A stretch of DNA of 64,000 nt from Halalkalicoccus subterraneus. Lineage in GTDB: Archaea; Halobacteriota; Halobacteria; Halobacteriales; Halalkalicoccaceae. The stretch covers positions 1 through 64,000 of the forward strand of contig NZ_RDQG01000039.1 of assembly GCF_003697815.1 (NCBI RefSeq), given 5' to 3'. Shown here one piece after another: positions 6,578-55,850 of the stretch. The position numbers were made by a program, and so were the translations under genes. Numbering within the stretch: the first letter of the stretch is position 1; every line of letters starts with the position of its first letter. A model generated the notes under the pieces. That model made no database searches. It was not told the DNA's origin and saw only the letters and a list, made by a program, of their open reading frames with translations.

Positions 6578-6657
6578 CTCTGTATGTTGTGATTGGTATG
6601 GTCTTCAGTTCTCGGCCAGAATGGATGAAGCGCCTGTTCTGTAGGACTGGGAACTGA
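6578..6657 (+). repeat. Family A repeat, copy 3
   Basis: This is a well-conserved unit with an intact central dyad (CTTC...GGCC...GAAG). It sits between two small membrane-protein genes that converge on it, one on each strand. The right half reads CCTGTTCTGTAG. Confidence 0.8.
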
Positions 6658-6705
6658 ACAGCAGTTATCAGTTGGTCAAAGAGGGGCCCAAAGAGTCGCT
6701 CTCGT

Positions 6706-11440: not shown

Positions 11441-11498
11441 AGGCGCATTTAATTCTGCCTGAAAGATGACTTTTCTGGCTTTGATAAGACTCACGACC

Positions 11499-11592
11499 GG
11501 AACCCTCACTCGCGAGCAAGAAACGCCGTATCCTCACATCGCTTCGCTCCGTTCCGAGACGGGGATTCCTCACTCGCTCGGGACAGTACTCA
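11499..11592 (-). repeat. Family B repeat, copy 6 (reverse orientation)
   Basis: This is the reverse complement of the unit seen at 14244, 16018, 18577 and 21799: GTCCCGAGCGAGCGAGGAA, CGTCTCGGAACGGAGCGAAG, then an ATACGGCG element and GCTCGCGAGTGAGGGTTC. It lies just upstream of moxR and makes its reading frame look falsely long. It is the only copy in this orientation. Confidence 0.8.
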
Positions 11593-14243: not shown

Positions 14244-14362
14244 GGCGGCGATCTTGTGCCTGCGGTATGACTACTGTCCCGAGCGAGCGAGGAATCCCCG
14301 TCTCGGAACGGAGCGAAGCGGAGTGAGAATACGGCGTTACTTGCTCGCAAGTGAGGGTTCCG
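14244..14362 (+). repeat. Family B repeat, copy 1
   Basis: This is an intact core unit: GTCCCGAGCGAGCGAGGAA, CGTCTCGGAACGGAGCGAAG, GGAGTGAGAATACGGCG, then TTGCTCGCAAGTGAGGGTTC. A leader (GGCGGCGATCTTGTGCCTGC) is shared with copies 2 and 5. The GGAACCC/GGGTTCC ends and GAGCGAG/GCTCGC parts can pair. Confidence 0.8.
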
Positions 14363-16017: not shown

Positions 16018-16141
16018 TGGCGGGGTAGCATCTCGTGCTTGCGGTTGCACTATTGTCCCGACCGACGAGGAACCCCCGTCTCGGAACGGAGCGAAGCGGA
16101 GTGAGAATACGGCGTTTCTTGCTCGCGAGCGAGGGTTCTGG
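16018..16141 (+). repeat. Family B repeat, copy 2
   Basis: This is a full core unit with the leader GGCGGGGTAGCATCTCGTGC and a slightly changed left half (GTCCCGACCGACGAGGAA). The end GCTCGCGAGCGAGGGTTC is intact. It lies in the gap of about 320 bp before the toxin-antitoxin operon. Confidence 0.8.
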
Positions 16142-16210
16142 TTATCATGAGTGTTGATATGATGGACATATTGACCCGGACACCGAGGGCTGTAGTTCAG
16201 AATAGCTCAG

Positions 16211-17664: not shown

Positions 17665-17906
17665 AGTAAGGGCCCTTATCGCATGTGCCTATTTAACTAC
17701 TATCGGATCGATCTTGCTTGCGTAGCTTGCTTTTGTGGACTGGTGATTCCGGTATGTCCCCACGCGTAGGTGGCTGGGTATGCCACCACACTATATACGC
17801 TTGATCTGATCGGGAAGCAAAACCTTACTAGGTGTGCGCGACTGCGACGATGTTGTCAGTACCTTTCGGTACAGCGTCGCGTAGGTCTGCGCTGAATATT
17901 CGTTCT
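17665..17906. other. Intergenic stretch without a recognised feature
   Basis: This 242-bp stretch lies between the small membrane-protein gene and the coiled-coil gene. No RNA gene, repeat copy or convincing coding frame was seen. An in-frame GTG upstream of 17907 exists, but the codons there do not look coding. Confidence 0.3.
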
Positions 17907-18233
17907 ATGTCCGCCAGAATGCTGATTGTTCGGGAGTGTCTCGAAGCCTCGCCGTTCGAGGACATGCTACTCAACTACGACGCTCGCGAGGGAGGCGAAC
18001 TCGCACACTACGTTGCCGATGAACACGGCGGCGAGCAGTTCAAGCAGCTGGCCGCGGAGCTTGAACGGACAGACGCACTCGCACAGAAAGACGAGCGGAT
18101 CGCCGAGCTCGAGACACAACTCCGAGAGACGTCGACGCCGTCCACGGTCGAAGCGCGGGCCGACGGTGGCGAGGATCGCTCTCTCGAGGAGCAGGCTGCC
18201 GCTGTCGTCCGCGAGATCGGAGCCAACGACTGA
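17907..18233 (+). CDS. Small acidic protein with coiled coil, unknown function
   Basis: The product is 108 residues from the ATG at 17907 (MSARMLIVRECLEASPFEDM). The C-terminal half is strongly helical (AELERTDALAQKDERIAELE, then QLRET), a probable coiled coil, followed by an acidic tail. Third-position GC is much higher than in the flanking small genes, which supports coding and suggests a different origin. It may be the surviving part of a longer gene. No family was recognised. Confidence 0.5.
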   Translation: MSARMLIVRECLEASPFEDMLLNYDAREGGELAHYVADEHGGEQFKQLAAELERTDALAQKDERIAELETQLRETSTPSTVEARADGGEDRSLEEQAAAVVREIGAND

Positions 18234-18576: not shown

Positions 18577-18755
18577 GCGGTCATCCCATATTTGCGGTAT
18601 GACTACTGTCCCGAGCGAGCGAGGAACCCCCGTCTCGGAACGGAGCGAAGCGGAGTGAGAATACGGCGTTACTTGCTCGCGAGTGAGGGTTCCAGTAGTC
18701 CGCTGTGGCACGTATCAGAGGTTAGTTCACATCTGTTGAGCGTAACTGGAGGACT
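18577..18755 (+). repeat. Family B repeat, copy 4 (long form)
   Basis: The core (18594-18692) is intact. Similarity to copy 5 continues a further 60 bp beyond it: both have CTGTGGCA...CAGAG, TAGTTCACA and a GTTGA-CGTAACTGGA-like end. The unit is therefore about 180 bp in this form. It fills most of the gap before the peptidase gene; 18756-18963 holds nothing else that was recognised. Confidence 0.75.
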
Positions 18756-20775: not shown

Positions 20776-20871
20776 CACCAGAATCTAGTTTTCTGACTTC
20801 TTTGTTTGATTCGATATGAGATTATGCTACTACTATCGTATTTATTATAAATATTGGAAGTGATAATAATT

Positions 20872-20955
20872 CTCTGTATGTAGTGGGTTGGTGCTATCTT
20901 CATTTCTCGGCTAGAATGGATGGAAAGACTTGCTACTGAGGACTGCAAACAGAAC
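20872..20955 (+). repeat. Family A repeat, copy 7
   Basis: The left half is CTGTATGTAGTGGGTTGGT, the central dyad is mostly kept (CTTCATTTC...CTAGAATGGATGG), and the right half is eroded (CTTGCTACTGAGGACTGC). This is the rightmost copy; none was seen between 21 and 64 kb. Confidence 0.75.
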
Positions 20956-20977
20956 ATATAAGGAATATTTATCTTCA

Positions 20978-21798: not shown

Positions 21799-21976
21799 CG
21801 GCGGCCATCCCGTACTCGCGGTTGTACCACTGTCCCGAGCGAGCGAGGAATCCCCGTCTCGGAACGACCAACGGGAGTGAGAATACGGCGCTACTTGCTC
21901 GCGAGTGAGAGTTCCGGTAGTTAACTGTGGCATATACCAGAGAATAGTTCACACCCGTTGATCGTACTTGGAAGAC
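21799..21976 (+). repeat. Family B repeat, copy 5 (long form)
   Basis: The leader is GCGGCCATCCCGTACTCGCG and the core is intact except for an altered middle (GGAACGACCAACGGGAGTGAG). The 60-bp extension is shared with copy 4. It lies between the S51 peptidase and methyltransferase genes. A degraded family A left half precedes it near 21745. Confidence 0.75.
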
Positions 21977-22619: not shown

Positions 22620-22744
22620 ACACAAGTCGAGACATGACGGTCACTTCAGTGCCCCCCTGATCGTTCTATGCGCTCGGTCTATGTATCAGTATGATCGCTG
22701 AAGGTTAACGTGAAACCAAGTCAGTCGGATCATTCTCTGGTACC

Positions 22745-22798
22745 CTCCCTTGTGCAACAATCGCCTTTGGGAGAAGGAGAATATGTTGCACAAGGGAG
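22745..22798. other. Candidate origin of transfer: perfect 15-bp inverted repeat
   Basis: CTCCCTTGTGCAACA (22745-22759) is repeated exactly inverted as TGTTGCACAAGGGAG (22784-22798), separated by 24 bp. It lies 280 bp upstream of the relaxosome-like genes, in a gap with no gene (22626-23078), which is the usual place for an oriT. A terminator is less likely because no T-run follows and no gene ends here. The nick site cannot be fixed by eye. Confidence 0.45.
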
Positions 22799-22919
22799 AT
22801 CGAATCAAAAACATCAGATACAAAGATACGATTGGTATGCCCTCGCTCTCAAGCCGGCCAGGTATGCCCACACCTTGTTGGGATCAGATGACCACAAAAT
22901 ACTAGAAATAGGACTATTA

Positions 22920-23078: not shown

Positions 23079-23477
23079 ATGAGCGACAACCAGCAGTCCG
23101 ATACATCACGTAATAAACCCGTCACGATGTACTATACGGCCGACGAAAAAGCCGCCATCAAACGCGAAGCCAATGACGCCGGGAAAACTGTCTCGACCTA
23201 CTGTCGCGATCTCGTTGAACGCCAGCGAACGGCCGACGACCTCGAGCAACTCGATGCCGAGGCCCGCCTCGAACGAGTCATGGCCGAAGGGACCGACCGC
23301 GTCGAAGAGATTGCCGAGGATGTCCGCGAACAGAACGGCCTCGTGATCCACCTCCTTCGAGAGATCGAAGACCAACTCGACGGCGTCGACCTCGAGGAAA
23401 CCGACAACGGAACAGACACCGATGACGATAACGGCTCAGGCTCAGGGAAGGCCAAGAGCGTCGACGAGCTGCTATGA
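23079..23477 (+). CDS. Ribbon-helix-helix relaxosome accessory protein (MobC-like)
   Basis: This 132-residue protein has an N-terminal RHH DNA-binding part (PVTMYYTADEKAAIKREAND, then KTVSTYCRDLVERQ), the pattern of MobC-like accessory proteins of mobilisable elements. A long helix and a very acidic tail follow (TDTDDDNGSGSG). The start at 23079 follows an A-rich leader; the longer frame begins in non-coding DNA. Its stop overlaps the relaxase start by four bases, so the pair is translationally coupled. It probably binds the upstream inverted repeats. Confidence 0.7.
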   Translation: MSDNQQSDTSRNKPVTMYYTADEKAAIKREANDAGKTVSTYCRDLVERQRTADDLEQLDAEARLERVMAEGTDRVEEIAEDVREQNGLVIHLLREIEDQLDGVDLEETDNGTDTDDDNGSGSGKAKSVDELL

Positions 23478-24028
23478 GTTCACAGTCTCCTGTCTCCGCC
23501 TCGGAGTTCTATTTCAACGTCTCGAACTTGGACGGCGACGAGGCGCAGGGAAAGATGAACTACATTTCTCGCGATTCGGAACAGGAACAGGCGAAAGGAC
23601 GCGAACAGGTGCCGGTCCACAACAGGGCTGGCCGCCCCATGTCCGAGAGAGAACGCGAGCAATTCATCGAGCACGCGGAGAGTCACGACTACTGCCAATG
23701 CTGGCAAGTGAGCCCACCGAACGGGAACGACCTCTCTCGCGACGAACTGCGGAAAGAGACCCGCCGCGTGGTCGACGACTACACTCGGGACAAGTCGACC
23801 TCCCGAGTTGCTTACGCCGTCCATACGGACCAGGACGGTCCGAACCACACCCACGTCTTAGTCACCGGCAACGAGCGAGAGCTTCGGATGGACCGCGAGG
23901 ACATCGAACAGACGCGAACGAACGCACATGAACGTATGACCGAAAACGAACGATACCGCCAGCGACGGCGAGAACACGGGCAGGAGAATGACCGTAGGCG
24001 TGATCTCGGAGGCAGGAGGGGACGATAA
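23474..24028 (+). CDS. Short HUH-type relaxase (MobA/VirD2-like)
   Basis: This 184-residue basic protein should nick DNA at oriT. The diagnostic element is the HUH motif in AVHTDQDGPNHTHVLVTGN (about residues 117-135), the H-x-D...H-x-H-V form of MOBP/MobA relaxases. The catalytic Tyr may be in KMNYISRDS near residue 29. The C-terminus is short and highly charged (RRREHGQENDRRRD). Bacterial relaxases are usually much larger because of primase or helicase parts; here only the nuclease core is present. The coupling-protein gene follows after two bases. Confidence 0.7.
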   Translation: MSSQSPVSASEFYFNVSNLDGDEAQGKMNYISRDSEQEQAKGREQVPVHNRAGRPMSEREREQFIEHAESHDYCQCWQVSPPNGNDLSRDELRKETRRVVDDYTRDKSTSRVAYAVHTDQDGPNHTHVLVTGNERELRMDREDIEQTRTNAHERMTENERYRQRRREHGQENDRRRDLGGRRGR

Positions 24029-24030
24029 AG

Positions 24031-25347
24031 ATGATCGAGACCCTTCTGCCAGTGGCCGCTGTAGGAACAGCCGGGTTGGCCTACAGCGTGAAACGGAAAG
24101 TGTTCCCACCCATGCCGGAGCCCGACGAGGATCACTTCGTCCTCCCGATCAAACTCAAATCCGGTGACGCCGAGGACATCAGTAACCGCTTCGTCCGAGG
24201 TATCCGAATTCCTCGCCGATCGTTGCTTACACTCGGGGCGAGCGGGGCCGGTAAATCCGAGACGCTGAAACACTTCGTCGATCAGCTCCAGAACGATCCG
24301 AATGAGCCGGTCGTCGTCTACGATCACAAAACCGACTATCAAGACTTCCTCGGTGACCACGGAACGCCTATGATTCGGCTCTCATCCGAGGGTTCGGCCG
24401 ACGAGAATGGGGACGCAATCGCGTGGAACATCTTCGCGGAGATTGAGGACGAGGAGGACGCCGATGAACTCGCTCGTGCGCTGTTCCCCGAGCAGAGTGG
24501 GGACTTCTGGAACGCAGCCGGACGGCAGTTGTTCGCGGCGATTCTGAAGTACCTCAGACGCGAGCTCGAGGATCCTGACAACGCCGATCTCGTGGACTAC
24601 TTCGCACGGGCGACTCCCGAAAAGATGCACGAGCACCTCACTCGGGACGGCCACGAGGACCTCACGGCCGCCGCAAGCGCGATCAATCCCGAAACGGAAC
24701 GGCAGGCCGGCTCCGTGTTCGCGACGGCCCAACAGCAAATCACGGACCTCTTTGTGGGTGACTTCGCCGAATCGGGCGACTTCTCGATTCGCGAGTATAT
24801 GGACGATCCTGACGGGCGGGTCTTGGTACTCGATTACCCGACCCGACAGTCCGGTACGATCGCGCCCGTGTTCCGCTACCTGATCGACCAGGCGATCATG
24901 CACGGCATGGACGACCCGGATCGGTCGGCGTACTACCTGCTCGACGAGATTGAGCACTTGGACGCGACGATCAAGCGTCTCGGCGAGTTGATCAACGTCG
25001 GCCGAGGCGTCAACTGTCAGGCGATCCTCTCGCTTCAGTCGGTCGCCCAGCTCGAGGATACGTATGGGAAGGAACGCGCTCACGCGCTGCTGTCGGGCAT
25101 GGTCACGGTGATTGGGCTTCGAGTGGCCGACGAGGAGAGCGTCAACTTTCTCCGCGAGACTGTCGGAACGTCCTTCGAACAGTATACTCGGAATTCAGGC
25201 GACAGTCGTATGCCCAACGAGAGCGAGGAGAAAGAGGAGTATCAGTTCGCGAAAGGTGATCTCCGGAACTTCGACCCTGGCGAGGCCGTGATTTGCCGAC
25301 AGGGCATGGGGTGGGTTCACGCACAGATACAGCTGCTCGAGGGGTAG
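24031..25347 (+). CDS. Type IV coupling protein-like ATPase (VirD4/TraD family)
   Basis: This 438-residue protein has one N-terminal membrane span (about residues 4-20), then a RecA-like motor. Walker A is GASGAGKSE near residue 70, Walker B YYLLDEIEHLD near 302, and a Gln/Ser motif follows in AILSLQSVAQLED. It matches the VirD4/TraD coupling proteins that bring relaxase-bound DNA to a type IV secretion channel. No channel genes are present, so the element would be mobilisable rather than self-transmissible. It is the last gene of the three-gene operon. Confidence 0.8.
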   Translation: MIETLLPVAAVGTAGLAYSVKRKVFPPMPEPDEDHFVLPIKLKSGDAEDISNRFVRGIRIPRRSLLTLGASGAGKSETLKHFVDQLQNDPNEPVVVYDHKTDYQDFLGDHGTPMIRLSSEGSADENGDAIAWNIFAEIEDEEDADELARALFPEQSGDFWNAAGRQLFAAILKYLRRELEDPDNADLVDYFARATPEKMHEHLTRDGHEDLTAAASAINPETERQAGSVFATAQQQITDLFVGDFAESGDFSIREYMDDPDGRVLVLDYPTRQSGTIAPVFRYLIDQAIMHGMDDPDRSAYYLLDEIEHLDATIKRLGELINVGRGVNCQAILSLQSVAQLEDTYGKERAHALLSGMVTVIGLRVADEESVNFLRETVGTSFEQYTRNSGDSRMPNESEEKEEYQFAKGDLRNFDPGEAVICRQGMGWVHAQIQLLEG

Positions 25348-52844: not shown

Positions 52845-53411
52845 TTACGATTCCAGCTCGAGTTCGGCGAGCACTTCATCCTCGTGCCGAGATGCGACAC
52901 GGTAGATGGCGTTGAAGAACTCCTTGTTCATCTGGATTTCGTCGCCACGCTGTTTCATTGCCCGATAGTTTACTTCGGCCAGCAAATCGTTCATCTCGCT
53001 GTGAACACGATCGAACAGGTAGACGTTCACATTCCGGAGATCATCGACCGTAAGACCCTGCTCCTGTGCGGCAAGGAAGAGTTCGCGGATAGATGCGTCT
53101 GGCGGCACGTCTGCCGGAATATCTGTTGTATCTGGCGTATCTTCTGTGTCTGGTATGTCTGTTGTTTCTTCAGTATCTTCTATATCTGTCCTATCTGCTG
53201 TATCTGACGTAGCTGATCCATCTGCTGAGACTGATGTGCCTTCTCTACCTTCTGTTCCTGTGTCCACTGTGCCTGTTGTATCTTGCGTATCTGTTGTGCC
53301 TTCTGTATCTGCTGTATCTTGCGCGTCTGGCGAATTAATGTCCGTGTCGCCGCCACGAACTTCTTCCATATTCCACATCCGCTGCTTCCGATTGTCAAGG
53401 TCGTCGCTCAT
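52845..53411 (-). CDS. Partner protein of plasmid ParA with Asp-Thr-rich linker
   Basis: This 188-residue protein is coded directly after parA with a four-base overlap, the position of a ParB-like or adaptor partner. Residues about 25-105 are a low-complexity Asp/Thr/Glu linker made of units such as DTQDTTGTVDT. The C-terminal 85 residues are folded and helical (SIRELFLAAQEQGLTVDDLR, then FDRVHSEMNDLLAEVNYRAM). No known ParB motif is seen, so the DNA-binding mode is open. The linker DNA itself is a run of near-repeats of TGTATCT-like units. Confidence 0.65.
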   Translation of the reverse strand: MSDDLDNRKQRMWNMEEVRGGDTDINSPDAQDTADTEGTTDTQDTTGTVDTGTEGREGTSVSADGSATSDTADRTDIEDTEETTDIPDTEDTPDTTDIPADVPPDASIRELFLAAQEQGLTVDDLRNVNVYLFDRVHSEMNDLLAEVNYRAMKQRGDEIQMNKEFFNAIYRVASRHEDEVLAELELES

Positions 53412-54241
53412 GCGTTCGCCTCCCGGGTTGTATCGACAGCCTGTAGCTGAGTGGCTACGTCATTCGCCAGTTTATCGTATGCTGCACGGACATCGTCGGT
53501 CTTTGCTGGGTCCTCATGCTGGAAGATGGACTTCCCATTGTTCCAGGCACGTTTGATCGCGGTCCGTTGGTAGATATCGTACGTATCCCACGGCGAATCG
53601 TGCCAGAATTCCAGCATTTCCCGTTGATCGCTGTCGTTACTCCGGTCGTCAATCTCGTTCACGACCAGTGCCACGACCTCAATCGATACGTCGGGGAAAC
53701 TGTTCTCAAGATAGGTGATTTCCTCCTGCATGTCTTCGACCGCAGAGATAAACCGGCGTTTTGGCTGGACCGGGATGATTACGTTCTCGGCAGCGACCAG
53801 TGCGTTGTCCAAGATACGAGAGAGATCGGGCGGACAATCGATCACGATCACGTCATAGTCACGGTCCAGCTCCTGCAGTGCTAGCTTCAACCGCATTTCA
53901 GCATTCGCGACCTGTCCTAGTTTGTCTTTCAAGCCTTTCATCGCCATATTTGCCGGGATGACATCGAACTCGGCATGGCCCTGGATGAGGTCGTTGATCT
54001 CGCTAGTCCGTGCCGGGTCCGTGAGCACTTGATGAAGTGAAAGGACCTTCTGGTGGTAGAGGTCGCCATTTTCGCCGTCCCGATTTTTGAATCCAGTACC
54101 CTCGCTTGCGACGCCTTGCGGATCAAGATCGATCAACAAGGTATCTTTTCCCTGGTTTGCGTACGCTCCAGCTAGTCCTAGTGCCGTAGTGGTTTTTCCT
54201 GCTCCGCCAGCTTGGTTCGCGACTGCGATGGTGTCTGTCAT
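53408..54241 (-). CDS. parA: ParA-family partition ATPase
   Basis: This 277-residue ATPase segregates plasmid copies. Walker A is NQAGGAGKTT (residues 9-18). In canonical ParA this is K-G-G-x-x-K, and here the first, signature Lys is Ala. Walker A' (LLIDLDPQG) and Walker B (VIVIDCPPDLS) are normal. The ATG at 54241 starts MTDTIAVANQ; a start ten codons earlier is also open (MGVDTPDTPD). The next gene overlaps by four bases and should encode its partner. It sits between the origin and the partner gene. Confidence 0.85.
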   Translation of the reverse strand: MTDTIAVANQAGGAGKTTTALGLAGAYANQGKDTLLIDLDPQGVASEGTGFKNRDGENGDLYHQKVLSLHQVLTDPARTSEINDLIQGHAEFDVIPANMAMKGLKDKLGQVANAEMRLKLALQELDRDYDVIVIDCPPDLSRILDNALVAAENVIIPVQPKRRFISAVEDMQEEITYLENSFPDVSIEVVALVVNEIDDRSNDSDQREMLEFWHDSPWDTYDIYQRTAIKRAWNNGKSIFQHEDPAKTDDVRAAYDKLANDVATQLQAVDTTREANA

Positions 54242-54408
54242 ATCTGGTGTGTCTGGTGTATCTACTCCCAAGGTCTTATTTGTACGTCAGACACATGATC
54301 TACAACCCACATATCGGGAAGATCTATTTTAAGAAAGTAGAGACGCTTAGAACGAGTGGAAAACCAGGAGAAGGTAGATATTGTACTGACCCTCCCCCAC
54401 CCCATGAG

Positions 54409-54642
54409 TTCCGCTGTTAACGGAAGAACGACTGTATCACCTCCATAGGAGGAGGTGATTTGTCGGTCGGTGAAAACGCCCTGCGGATATGGTTTTTAGC
54501 CTATATACTTAATACTATATTAGATTTCTAGATATATTATCAGCAGGACTGTCTAGTATGGTCGTCACAGTAACTGTCCTAACAGCGGAAGCAGTGGGGG
54601 GAGGGTCTAGTGACTTATCGTCGCTAACAGCGGAAGCAGTGG
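54409..54642. other. Probable replication origin: 13-bp repeats, hairpin and AT-rich stretch
   Basis: CTAACAGCGGAAGCAGTGG occurs at 54579-54597 and again at 54624-54642. Its core is inverted at 54409-54419 (TTCCGCTGTTA) and, on the other side of the Orc gene, at 55926-55938. Between them is an AT-rich stretch of about 50 bp (54488-54540) that could be the unwinding element. The arrangement of inverted repeats around an AT-rich core next to orc1/cdc6 is that of haloarchaeal origins. Confidence 0.65.
54436..54459. other. Perfect 9-bp hairpin inside the origin region
   Basis: ATCACCTCC (54436-54444) pairs with GGAGGTGAT (54451-54459) over a 6-bp loop. It may be part of the origin or end transcription of the leftward orc gene. 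One arm is identical to the 3' end of archaeal 16S rRNA and the other to a full Shine-Dalgarno sequence, which could be chance. Confidence 0.5.
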
Positions 54643-54644
54643 TG

Positions 54645-55850
54645 TCAGGCTTCTGCTTCAGCCCCTAGAAGTTCTTTCAGACCGGACTTCACGCTGGAGA
54701 CGGGTTGGTCCAGCTTGTGTTTCTTGTACTTTCCACCACTCTTCCCGCGATTAATCTGGGTTGAGGAGATGATTCCGAGTGTCTCAAGTTCGGCAAGATA
54801 TTCACGGATCGCCCGATCGGAGATCGGATCACTTCCTTCGCGTTCACATAGAGTCTCGTACGGTGCCCTGATCTCTCGTGTTCGTGCCGGTGAATCACCC
54901 TGTTCTTCGAGAATGGTTAGTGCCCAGAGTACCAGTTGTCCGTGCTGGGAGTAATTATCAATACCTTTGATTATTTGGTCGGTTTGAAGGCGATCTCTGG
55001 CTTGACGGACATGGAGTTCCGTTACGTGGTCAGCGTTGGTTTCTCGAGCAATGTCACCACTTTCAAGCAATAGGTCCAATGCTTGGCGGGCGTCTCCCGA
55101 GTCTTTTGCACCGAATGCGGCACACAGATCGATCACGCCATCCTTCAGCACGTTTTCTTGAAATGCGACAGCTTCGCGTTGCCGCAGGACCTCGCAGAGT
55201 TCAGTGGCGTCGTAGGCGCTGAACGAGACCTCTTTCTCACAGAGACTAGACCGGACTTTGGAACTCAGCTGTTTTCGGAAGTTCAGATCGTTCGAGATTC
55301 CGATGACACCAAGTTTTGTGTTTACTATGTCGGCGTTTGACCGGGCGCGTGGTAGTTTGTAGAGGAGGCTGTCATCTTTGATGTGGTCCACCTCGTCGAG
55401 GACGATGAGGACGGTGCCACCGATCTGATCGAGTTCCTCGAACAGAAATTCGTAGACAGATGCTTGGGGGTAGCCGGTATTAGAGATCTGGTTTGCGGGA
55501 TTGCGGAGCCTATTGATGATCGCGACTGCGGTTTGGTAGCTGGTATTGAGACCATCGCAGTTGATTTCAATAGTGTTGAGGTCCAGTCCATCGATATTGG
55601 TGGCGTCGCGTTCGAGACGATCCAGGAGGAAACGGGTGGCTGCGGTTTTGCCGACACCGCTTTTTCCGTAGATGAAGATATTGGATGGGGTTTCGCCCTC
55701 GATGACGGGCTGGAGTGCGGCGTGGTATTGCGTAAGTTCTTCATCGCGACCGACCAGTTCGTCGGGCGTCCATTCTTCCAGTAGGGCTTCTCGTTCTTTG
55801 AAGATGCTTCCAGTTGGTTTGAAGCTGAATGCGGTCATTGCACATGGCAT
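54645..55850 (-). CDS. cdc6: Orc1/Cdc6-type replication initiator
   Basis: This 401-residue initiator is an AAA+ protein. Walker A is YGKSGVGKTA (61-70), Walker B VLIVLDEVDH near 143-152, sensor 1 ISNDLNF near 189, and sensor 2 is in the GDARQALDLL region near 263. A C-terminal winged helix (from about 310) should bind the flanking repeats. It starts MPCAMTAFSF; the ATG four codons in (55838) is an alternative. With ParA next door it defines this part of the window as a replicon of its own. Confidence 0.92.
   Translation of the reverse strand: MPCAMTAFSFKPTGSIFKEREALLEEWTPDELVGRDEELTQYHAALQPVIEGETPSNIFIYGKSGVGKTAATRFLLDRLERDATNIDGLDLNTIEINCDGLNTSYQTAVAIINRLRNPANQISNTGYPQASVYEFLFEELDQIGGTVLIVLDEVDHIKDDSLLYKLPRARSNADIVNTKLGVIGISNDLNFRKQLSSKVRSSLCEKEVSFSAYDATELCEVLRQREAVAFQENVLKDGVIDLCAAFGAKDSGDARQALDLLLESGDIARETNADHVTELHVRQARDRLQTDQIIKGIDNYSQHGQLVLWALTILEEQGDSPARTREIRAPYETLCEREGSDPISDRAIREYLAELETLGIISSTQINRGKSGGKYKKHKLDQPVSSVKSGLKELLGAEAEA

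Follow-up and report, generated by a model that had tools for sequence, protein, structure and literature searches.

A putative mobilization operon with a minimal HUH relaxase in Halalkalicoccus subterraneus, a possible relict of a haloarchaeal conjugation region

Introduction

In 2011, Guglielmini and coworkers knew of just two conjugative elements in archaea, one ICE and a single plasmid, pNG500 of Haloarcula marismortui, and suspected that unknown relaxases exist (PMC3158045). A 2019 study pointed out a relaxase gene and a TraD gene on Haloarcula taiwanensis pNYT1 and on a contig of Har. californiae, going no further than that remark, and called relaxase rare in archaeal plasmids (PMC6333295). 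According to a 2025 review, no relaxase is known on the conjugative plasmids of Sulfolobus or Thermococcus. Across the open papers covered here, the class is therefore already known, if little studied.

Here, we analyze a related locus in a 64,000-nucleotide stretch of DNA (the window) from the contig NZ_RDQG01000039.1 (C39) of Halalkalicoccus subterraneus. Like pNG500, the window encodes a relaxase of this family with a coupling ATPase after it. In pNG500, two ribbon-helix-helix (RHH) genes come before the relaxase gene, and a VirB4-like “conjugal transfer protein” is encoded immediately upstream; unlike the window, it has kept pilin and channel genes, and its relaxase, of about 250 amino acids (aa), is about 33% identical to the window protein over 135 aa. 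Nearer at hand, plasmid 4 of Halalkalicoccus jeotgali B3 (NC_014301) has a coupling protein 85.6% identical to that of the window, the same conserved block upstream, and a repeat in the same place, but in contrast to the window it retains intact VirB6-like and VirB4 genes upstream of the relaxase locus. Its VirB4-like ATPase (1092 aa) has a weak PF19044 match, and MOB-suite calls MPF_T. The VirB6-like protein is polytopic, and the names VirB6-like and pilin-like for the small neighbors reflect membrane topology and position rather than matches to a model. Among named plasmids, the closest relaxase (44.9%) is that of plasmid 2 of the same strain (NC_014299), which is classed as MOBP/conjugative by MOB-suite according to PLSDB. 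The family is also matched on a Haloarcula taiwanensis plasmid record (CP019156).

Results

An earlier note, made from the DNA letters alone, had described three tightly packed genes encoding an RHH protein, a minimal relaxase, and a VirD4/TraD-like ATPase. All three open reading frames were confirmed on the plus strand, the RHH gene at positions 23079 to 23477 (132 aa), the relaxase gene at 23474 to 24028 (184 aa), and the ATPase gene at 24031 to 25347 (438 aa). The RHH and relaxase genes share a 4-bp ATGA overlap and the gap from relaxase to ATPase is 2 bp, a layout expected of a single operon. The three genes (here called the triad) are thus taken as one operon for an RHH protein, a HUH relaxase core, and a coupling ATPase, and mobilization is the best-supported function. 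Very probably, the encoded proteins nick DNA of the plasmid and pass it on to a DNA-export pump.

The RHH protein was assigned as a NikA/MbpA/TraJ-like DNA-binding accessory protein of the relaxosome from its synteny and from its match to the Pfam model of the mobilization protein NikA (PF21983 NikA-like, E = 1.6e-8, 35 bits against a cutoff of 27); a match to the NCBIfam model MbpA (1.1e-6) fell below that model's cutoff. The third gene encodes a type IV coupling protein (VirD4/TrwB/TraD-like), with Pfam matches to PF10412 TrwB_AAD_bind (2.5e-38), PF02534 (8e-17), and PF12696 (4.7e-14) and with the Walker motifs of a TrwB/TraD ATPase domain (GASGAGKS, the Walker A motif, at residue 69, and YYLLDE). 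Its N terminus, where a transmembrane anchor would be expected, bears only a weak hydrophobic segment (residues 1 to 20), with a maximum mean hydropathy of 1.54 versus 2.53 for the clear segment of a relative that is fused to its relaxase. Purifying selection acts on the coupling protein (dN/dS of 0.09 to 0.14 against four relatives, on deep branches and still compatible with recent relaxation).

The relaxase itself had no match in Pfam or NCBIfam, and its identity was therefore drawn from its relatives and its structure. We aligned 24 sequences over the nuclease core, taking them from this genome, from those of other haloarchaea, and from plasmids. Scanned singly, 23 of the 24 members matched PF03432 (MobA/VirD2-like relaxase; best, 6.3e-11), the window relaxase being the sole exception, and MobP1 was the commonest NCBIfam match (15/24). 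MobP1 and NikA-like, the best-matching models, are those of MobP1 relaxases with NikA/TraJ-type RHH proteins (R64 and RP4 type), from which the window differs in its haloarchaeal host, in a relaxase that is the nuclease core alone, and in the 438-aa coupling protein with its weak N-terminal segment.

Tyr30 (motif I), the candidate nucleophile, and His117 are invariant across the alignment. H125 and H127 are common in the family and present in the window copy, with Asp or Gln instead in some relatives. The HTDQDGPNHTHV motif pointed out in the earlier note is indeed present, with H117, H125, and H127, so that the window protein has both the Tyr of motif I and the His motif III of a relaxase. 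The usual family motif RHxIISP reads QCWQVSP in this protein, with the Tyr and His motifs intact. Because it departs from the family in this way and is alone among the 24 in having no PF03432 match, the window relaxase, divergent in sequence, may be drifting. Its small size is not peculiar to it, since family members in these halophiles usually have roughly 170 to 265 aa.

Structure prediction had been suggested as a check, and it returned an HUH fold with the topology of relaxases (AlphaFold2, eight alignment rows, mean pLDDT 72.8). Of the 16 best matches among solved structures (Z = 8.7 to 11.2), 15 were relaxases and the other was an HUH Rep domain; the first structure outside the HUH group fell to Z = 6.9. 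Relaxases 2NS6, 8A1B, 4HT4, and 1QX0 matched at Z = 9.7 to 11.2, with R1162 MobA at the top (Z = 11.2, 143 residues, 3.2 A); Foldseek alone also placed MobA (2NS6) first, at a borderline E value of 1.6e-3. MobA of R1162/RSF1010 and NES (4HT4; Z = 10.3) are minimal relaxase domains of the MOBQ type, aligned over 142 to 143 residues; in contrast to the window protein they are bacterial, and they share 11 to 14% sequence identity with it. When the family profile was searched against the sequences of solved structures, it gave no relevant match. In the predicted structure, Tyr30 lies in the first helix (residues 24 to 40), H117 ends the strand 111 to 117, and H125 and H127 sit on the strand 125 to 131, a modeled placement that fits the HUH arrangement.

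We searched 391 Halobacteria genomes. Relaxase relatives (E ≤ 1e-3) were found in 31 of them, from 11 of 86 genera, and PF03432 scored above its cutoff in 28, all within the 31; a bacterial-type conjugation module of this kind, of which the window operon is a pared-down version, is present in about 8% of the sampled haloarchaeal species. Relatives also occurred on 21 plasmid records, all haloarchaeal and several annotated “relaxase,” and none were found in the viral contigs and phage records searched. The suggestion that this is an undescribed system does not survive these counts and annotations, nor the description of pNG500 as conjugative in 2011.

Gene order was examined in a sample of 20 loci of 13 to 20 kb, not all of them independent, as some are close relatives. 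The RHH gene was directly 5′ of the relaxase gene in all 20, and the coupling ATPase directly followed the relaxase, or was fused to it (once), in 19. The search for RHH-relaxase-coupling protein triplets in Halobacteria that the earlier note had proposed thus found them, the reverse of homologs that always occur away from coupling ATPases, which it had listed as evidence against its reading. A VirB4-like ATPase lay within about 8 kb of the triad in 11 loci; 9 had no VirB4 nearby. In the fusion (L146:9851-11920), relaxase and coupling ATPase form one 690-codon frame with both Pfam domains, behind an RHH gene, which supports a shared pathway. No earlier report of such a relaxase-coupling protein fusion was found in open papers searched with narrow terms.

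Some of the plasmids with a triad have features of their own. On the 16.7-kb plasmid of Halomarina sp. BND7 (NZ_CP100460, L049), a terminase (PF17289) and a Mu F-like head protein (PF04233) accompany the triad, possibly making it a phage-plasmid with conjugation genes. NZ_CP085343 (L050) and NZ_CP119995 (L051) consist of a 10.7-kb or about 16.4-kb unit repeated head to tail with a triad in each, representing either real multimers or assembly concatemers.

The earlier note had also stated that no mating-channel genes are present. None is intact on C39, but a truncated VirB4 open reading frame (17832 to 18233, plus strand), of which the C-terminal tail alone is kept, had been missed within the window, 5 kb upstream of the triad. 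Over positions 17940 to 18074 it encodes 45 aa that share 86.7% identity with the C-terminal region of a complete VirB4 encoded on C15, another contig of this genome (E = 5e-20), with a profile match of 1.1e-21. The rest of C39 contains no channel gene, and the contig therefore lacks the combination of VirB4 with channel genes that a conjugative, self-transmissible element would carry. Contig C15 carries a VirB6-like gene along with its complete VirB4. The remnant shows that the channel was lost at this locus, and many relatives have VirB4 and VirB6-like genes directly beside the triad, contrary to the idea of an element class that is simply devoid of channel genes.

Between the VirB4 remnant and the triad lie an oligopeptidase-like gene, an S51 peptidase gene, and a methyltransferase gene. 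The first two, both unrelated genes, are bracketed by direct copies of a dispersed repeat, one just downstream of the remnant (18577 to 18754, plus strand) and the other, 82% identical, at 21801 to 21976 (plus strand), the position at which the H. jeotgali plasmid 4 copy sits between VirB4 and triad. From this arrangement, the simplest history would be that the channel genes were lost and unrelated genes were inserted. An empty site was sought in other Halalkalicoccus genomes, where synteny was too poor and the oligopeptidase region alone was matched, in one genome (G225).

This noncoding repeat, about 100 to 200 bp long and mostly 75 to 91% identical between copies, is frequent on plasmid-like contigs of this genome (C15, C20, and C55) and in H. 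jeotgali; further window copies are at 14244 to 14362, 16029 to 16142, and 11493 to 11587. A second dispersed repeat of about 80 bp (75 to 86% identical) occurs at 20776 to 20977, 83 to 158, 681 to 761, and 6578 to 6660 of the window and on C15 (L086). C39 is probably a plasmid or megaplasmid replicon, since it carries on its minus strand (53408 to 55850) genes for a ParA-like partition ATPase (53408 to 54271; PF13614, 2.4e-39) and an Orc1/Cdc6 initiator (54645 to 55850; PF22703, 9.9e-25; PF09079, 4.7e-22).

Upstream of the operon, a noncoding block of about 190 bp (22682 to 22872, plus strand) is conserved, with a mean pairwise identity of 67 to 77% among six triads, compared with 34% upstream of it and 46 to 48% downstream. 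The block sits 200 to 350 bp before the RHH gene and recurs 5′ of other triads; from this conservation we infer a candidate oriT, an operator for the RHH protein, or both. Two direct repeats GGTATGCCC within it (22834 to 22842 and 22861 to 22869, plus strand), largely conserved in the six triads, are possible iteron-like RHH sites, although the strict pattern used for them was too narrow to gauge their association with triads. A 15-bp perfect inverted repeat, CTCCCTTGTGCAACA/TGTTGCACAAGGGAG (22745 to 22798), was considered as a triad-specific oriT and rejected: its 12-bp core palindrome, CCTTGTGCAACA-N20..24-TGTTGCACAAGG (22748 to 22795), is dispersed through this archaeal family at 2 to 27 copies per genome. 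Restricted to Halalkalicoccus and a sister genus (7 of 391 genomes; reversed control, 0), the palindrome has constant arms and a variable loop, and no obvious target duplications were seen at its copies. Given this spread, the block rather than the palindrome is the oriT candidate.

An orphan 364-bp copy of the block (78% identity) is found on contig C78 (L106:9246-9607); no gene of a triad is present in the 18 kb examined, and the copy is possibly an orphan oriT or a leftover. Decayed triads are many in Halalkalicoccus (L107:8025-8900, L108, L017, L016, L078, and L084), with coupling proteins truncated or frameshifted and, among them, an RHH remnant joined to the 3′ end of a coupling-protein gene. 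The triad was also considered as a transposon-like unit. This was rejected, as no consistent ends were found and the block copies away from intact triads are partly decayed triads.

The coupling proteins of C39 and C15 are 88.6% identical, whereas the relaxases of the same two contigs share only 32% and their RHH proteins are likewise only distantly related. Relaxosome and coupling protein thus differ in history or rate.

Discussion

We consider it probable that the operon represents what remains here of a MOBP-type conjugation system of haloarchaea, namely its part for DNA processing and coupling, after the channel genes at this locus were lost. In the most likely mechanism, the RHH protein would bind the conserved block just upstream (the candidate oriT at 22682 to 22872). 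Helped by it, the relaxase would nick one strand by means of Tyr30 and a metal bound by the motif III histidines and would stay attached to the 5′ end, and the coupling ATPase would pass the protein-DNA complex to an export channel. That channel would have to be supplied in trans, since the plasmid now encodes none and keeps the VirB4 tail alone; the VirB6-VirB4 genes of C15 are its nearest candidate source. However, the C15 channel need not accept the C39 relaxosome, because the relaxase and RHH protein are distant from those of C15, though the coupling proteins are nearly identical. The divergence of the relaxase, the many decayed triads in the genus, the palindrome copies away from triads, and the orphan block on C78 all count against this explanation.

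Several of these observations would be expected if the triad were a dying relict without present function, left when recombination broke a conjugative region and the channel was deleted, its three genes not yet decayed. The VirB4 gene cut to its tail, the two repeat-bracketed genes between that tail and the triad, the triad remnants across the genus, and a divergent relaxase without a PF03432 match all suit such an end state. Yet the three frames are intact, the start/stop overlaps are kept, and the Tyr and His motifs survive; the low dN/dS of the coupling protein also speaks for function, but as a deep-branch measure it would allow for recent relaxation. We hold this reading to be possible but, on balance, doubtful. 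Somewhat less plausible to us is the proposal of the earlier note, a self-sufficient minimal mobilization module selected to travel without channel genes of its own, using whichever haloarchaeal channel is compatible or taking advantage of cell fusion. On several complete small plasmids the triad does occur without a neighboring VirB4 call (L049, 16.7 kb; L050, 21.5 kb; L051, 55 kb), nine of the 20 sampled loci likewise have no VirB4 close by, and helper VirB4 genes exist elsewhere in the same genome. On the other hand, the VirB4 remnant of the window points to secondary loss rather than to a module built channel-free, and several relatives carry the full set.

The triad and its upstream block might also be a working archaeal hitchhiking module that lost its own channel and is mobilized by the VirB4/VirB6 channel of another plasmid in the same cell, docking through the near-identical coupling protein while relaxase and RHH protein, and hence transfer origin specificity, diverged or were swapped to avoid cross-talk; we think this unlikely. 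It is very improbable that the HUH protein is instead a rolling-circle replication initiator or a transposase-like nuclease. HUH folds are shared with such proteins, one of the structural matches is a Rep domain, and two family members weakly match the REP_ORF2-G2P model (best, 4.8e-4), but the family models group the protein with MobP relaxases, its linkage to a coupling ATPase is consistent and includes one fusion, and the replicon of the window carries an Orc1/Cdc6 initiator of its own. On the best reading, the operon is left over from a MOBP conjugation region of haloarchaea and may be mobilized in trans through the channel of C15.

What the window copy contributes is one instance of channel loss together with a candidate transfer origin, and no new mechanism. 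Together, the results indicate that haloarchaea have a genuine bacterial-type relaxosome, coupling protein, and VirB4 set. With the relaxase family found in about 8% of the sampled species, including cultured ones, and on complete plasmids, relaxase-driven single-strand transfer in archaea becomes directly testable.
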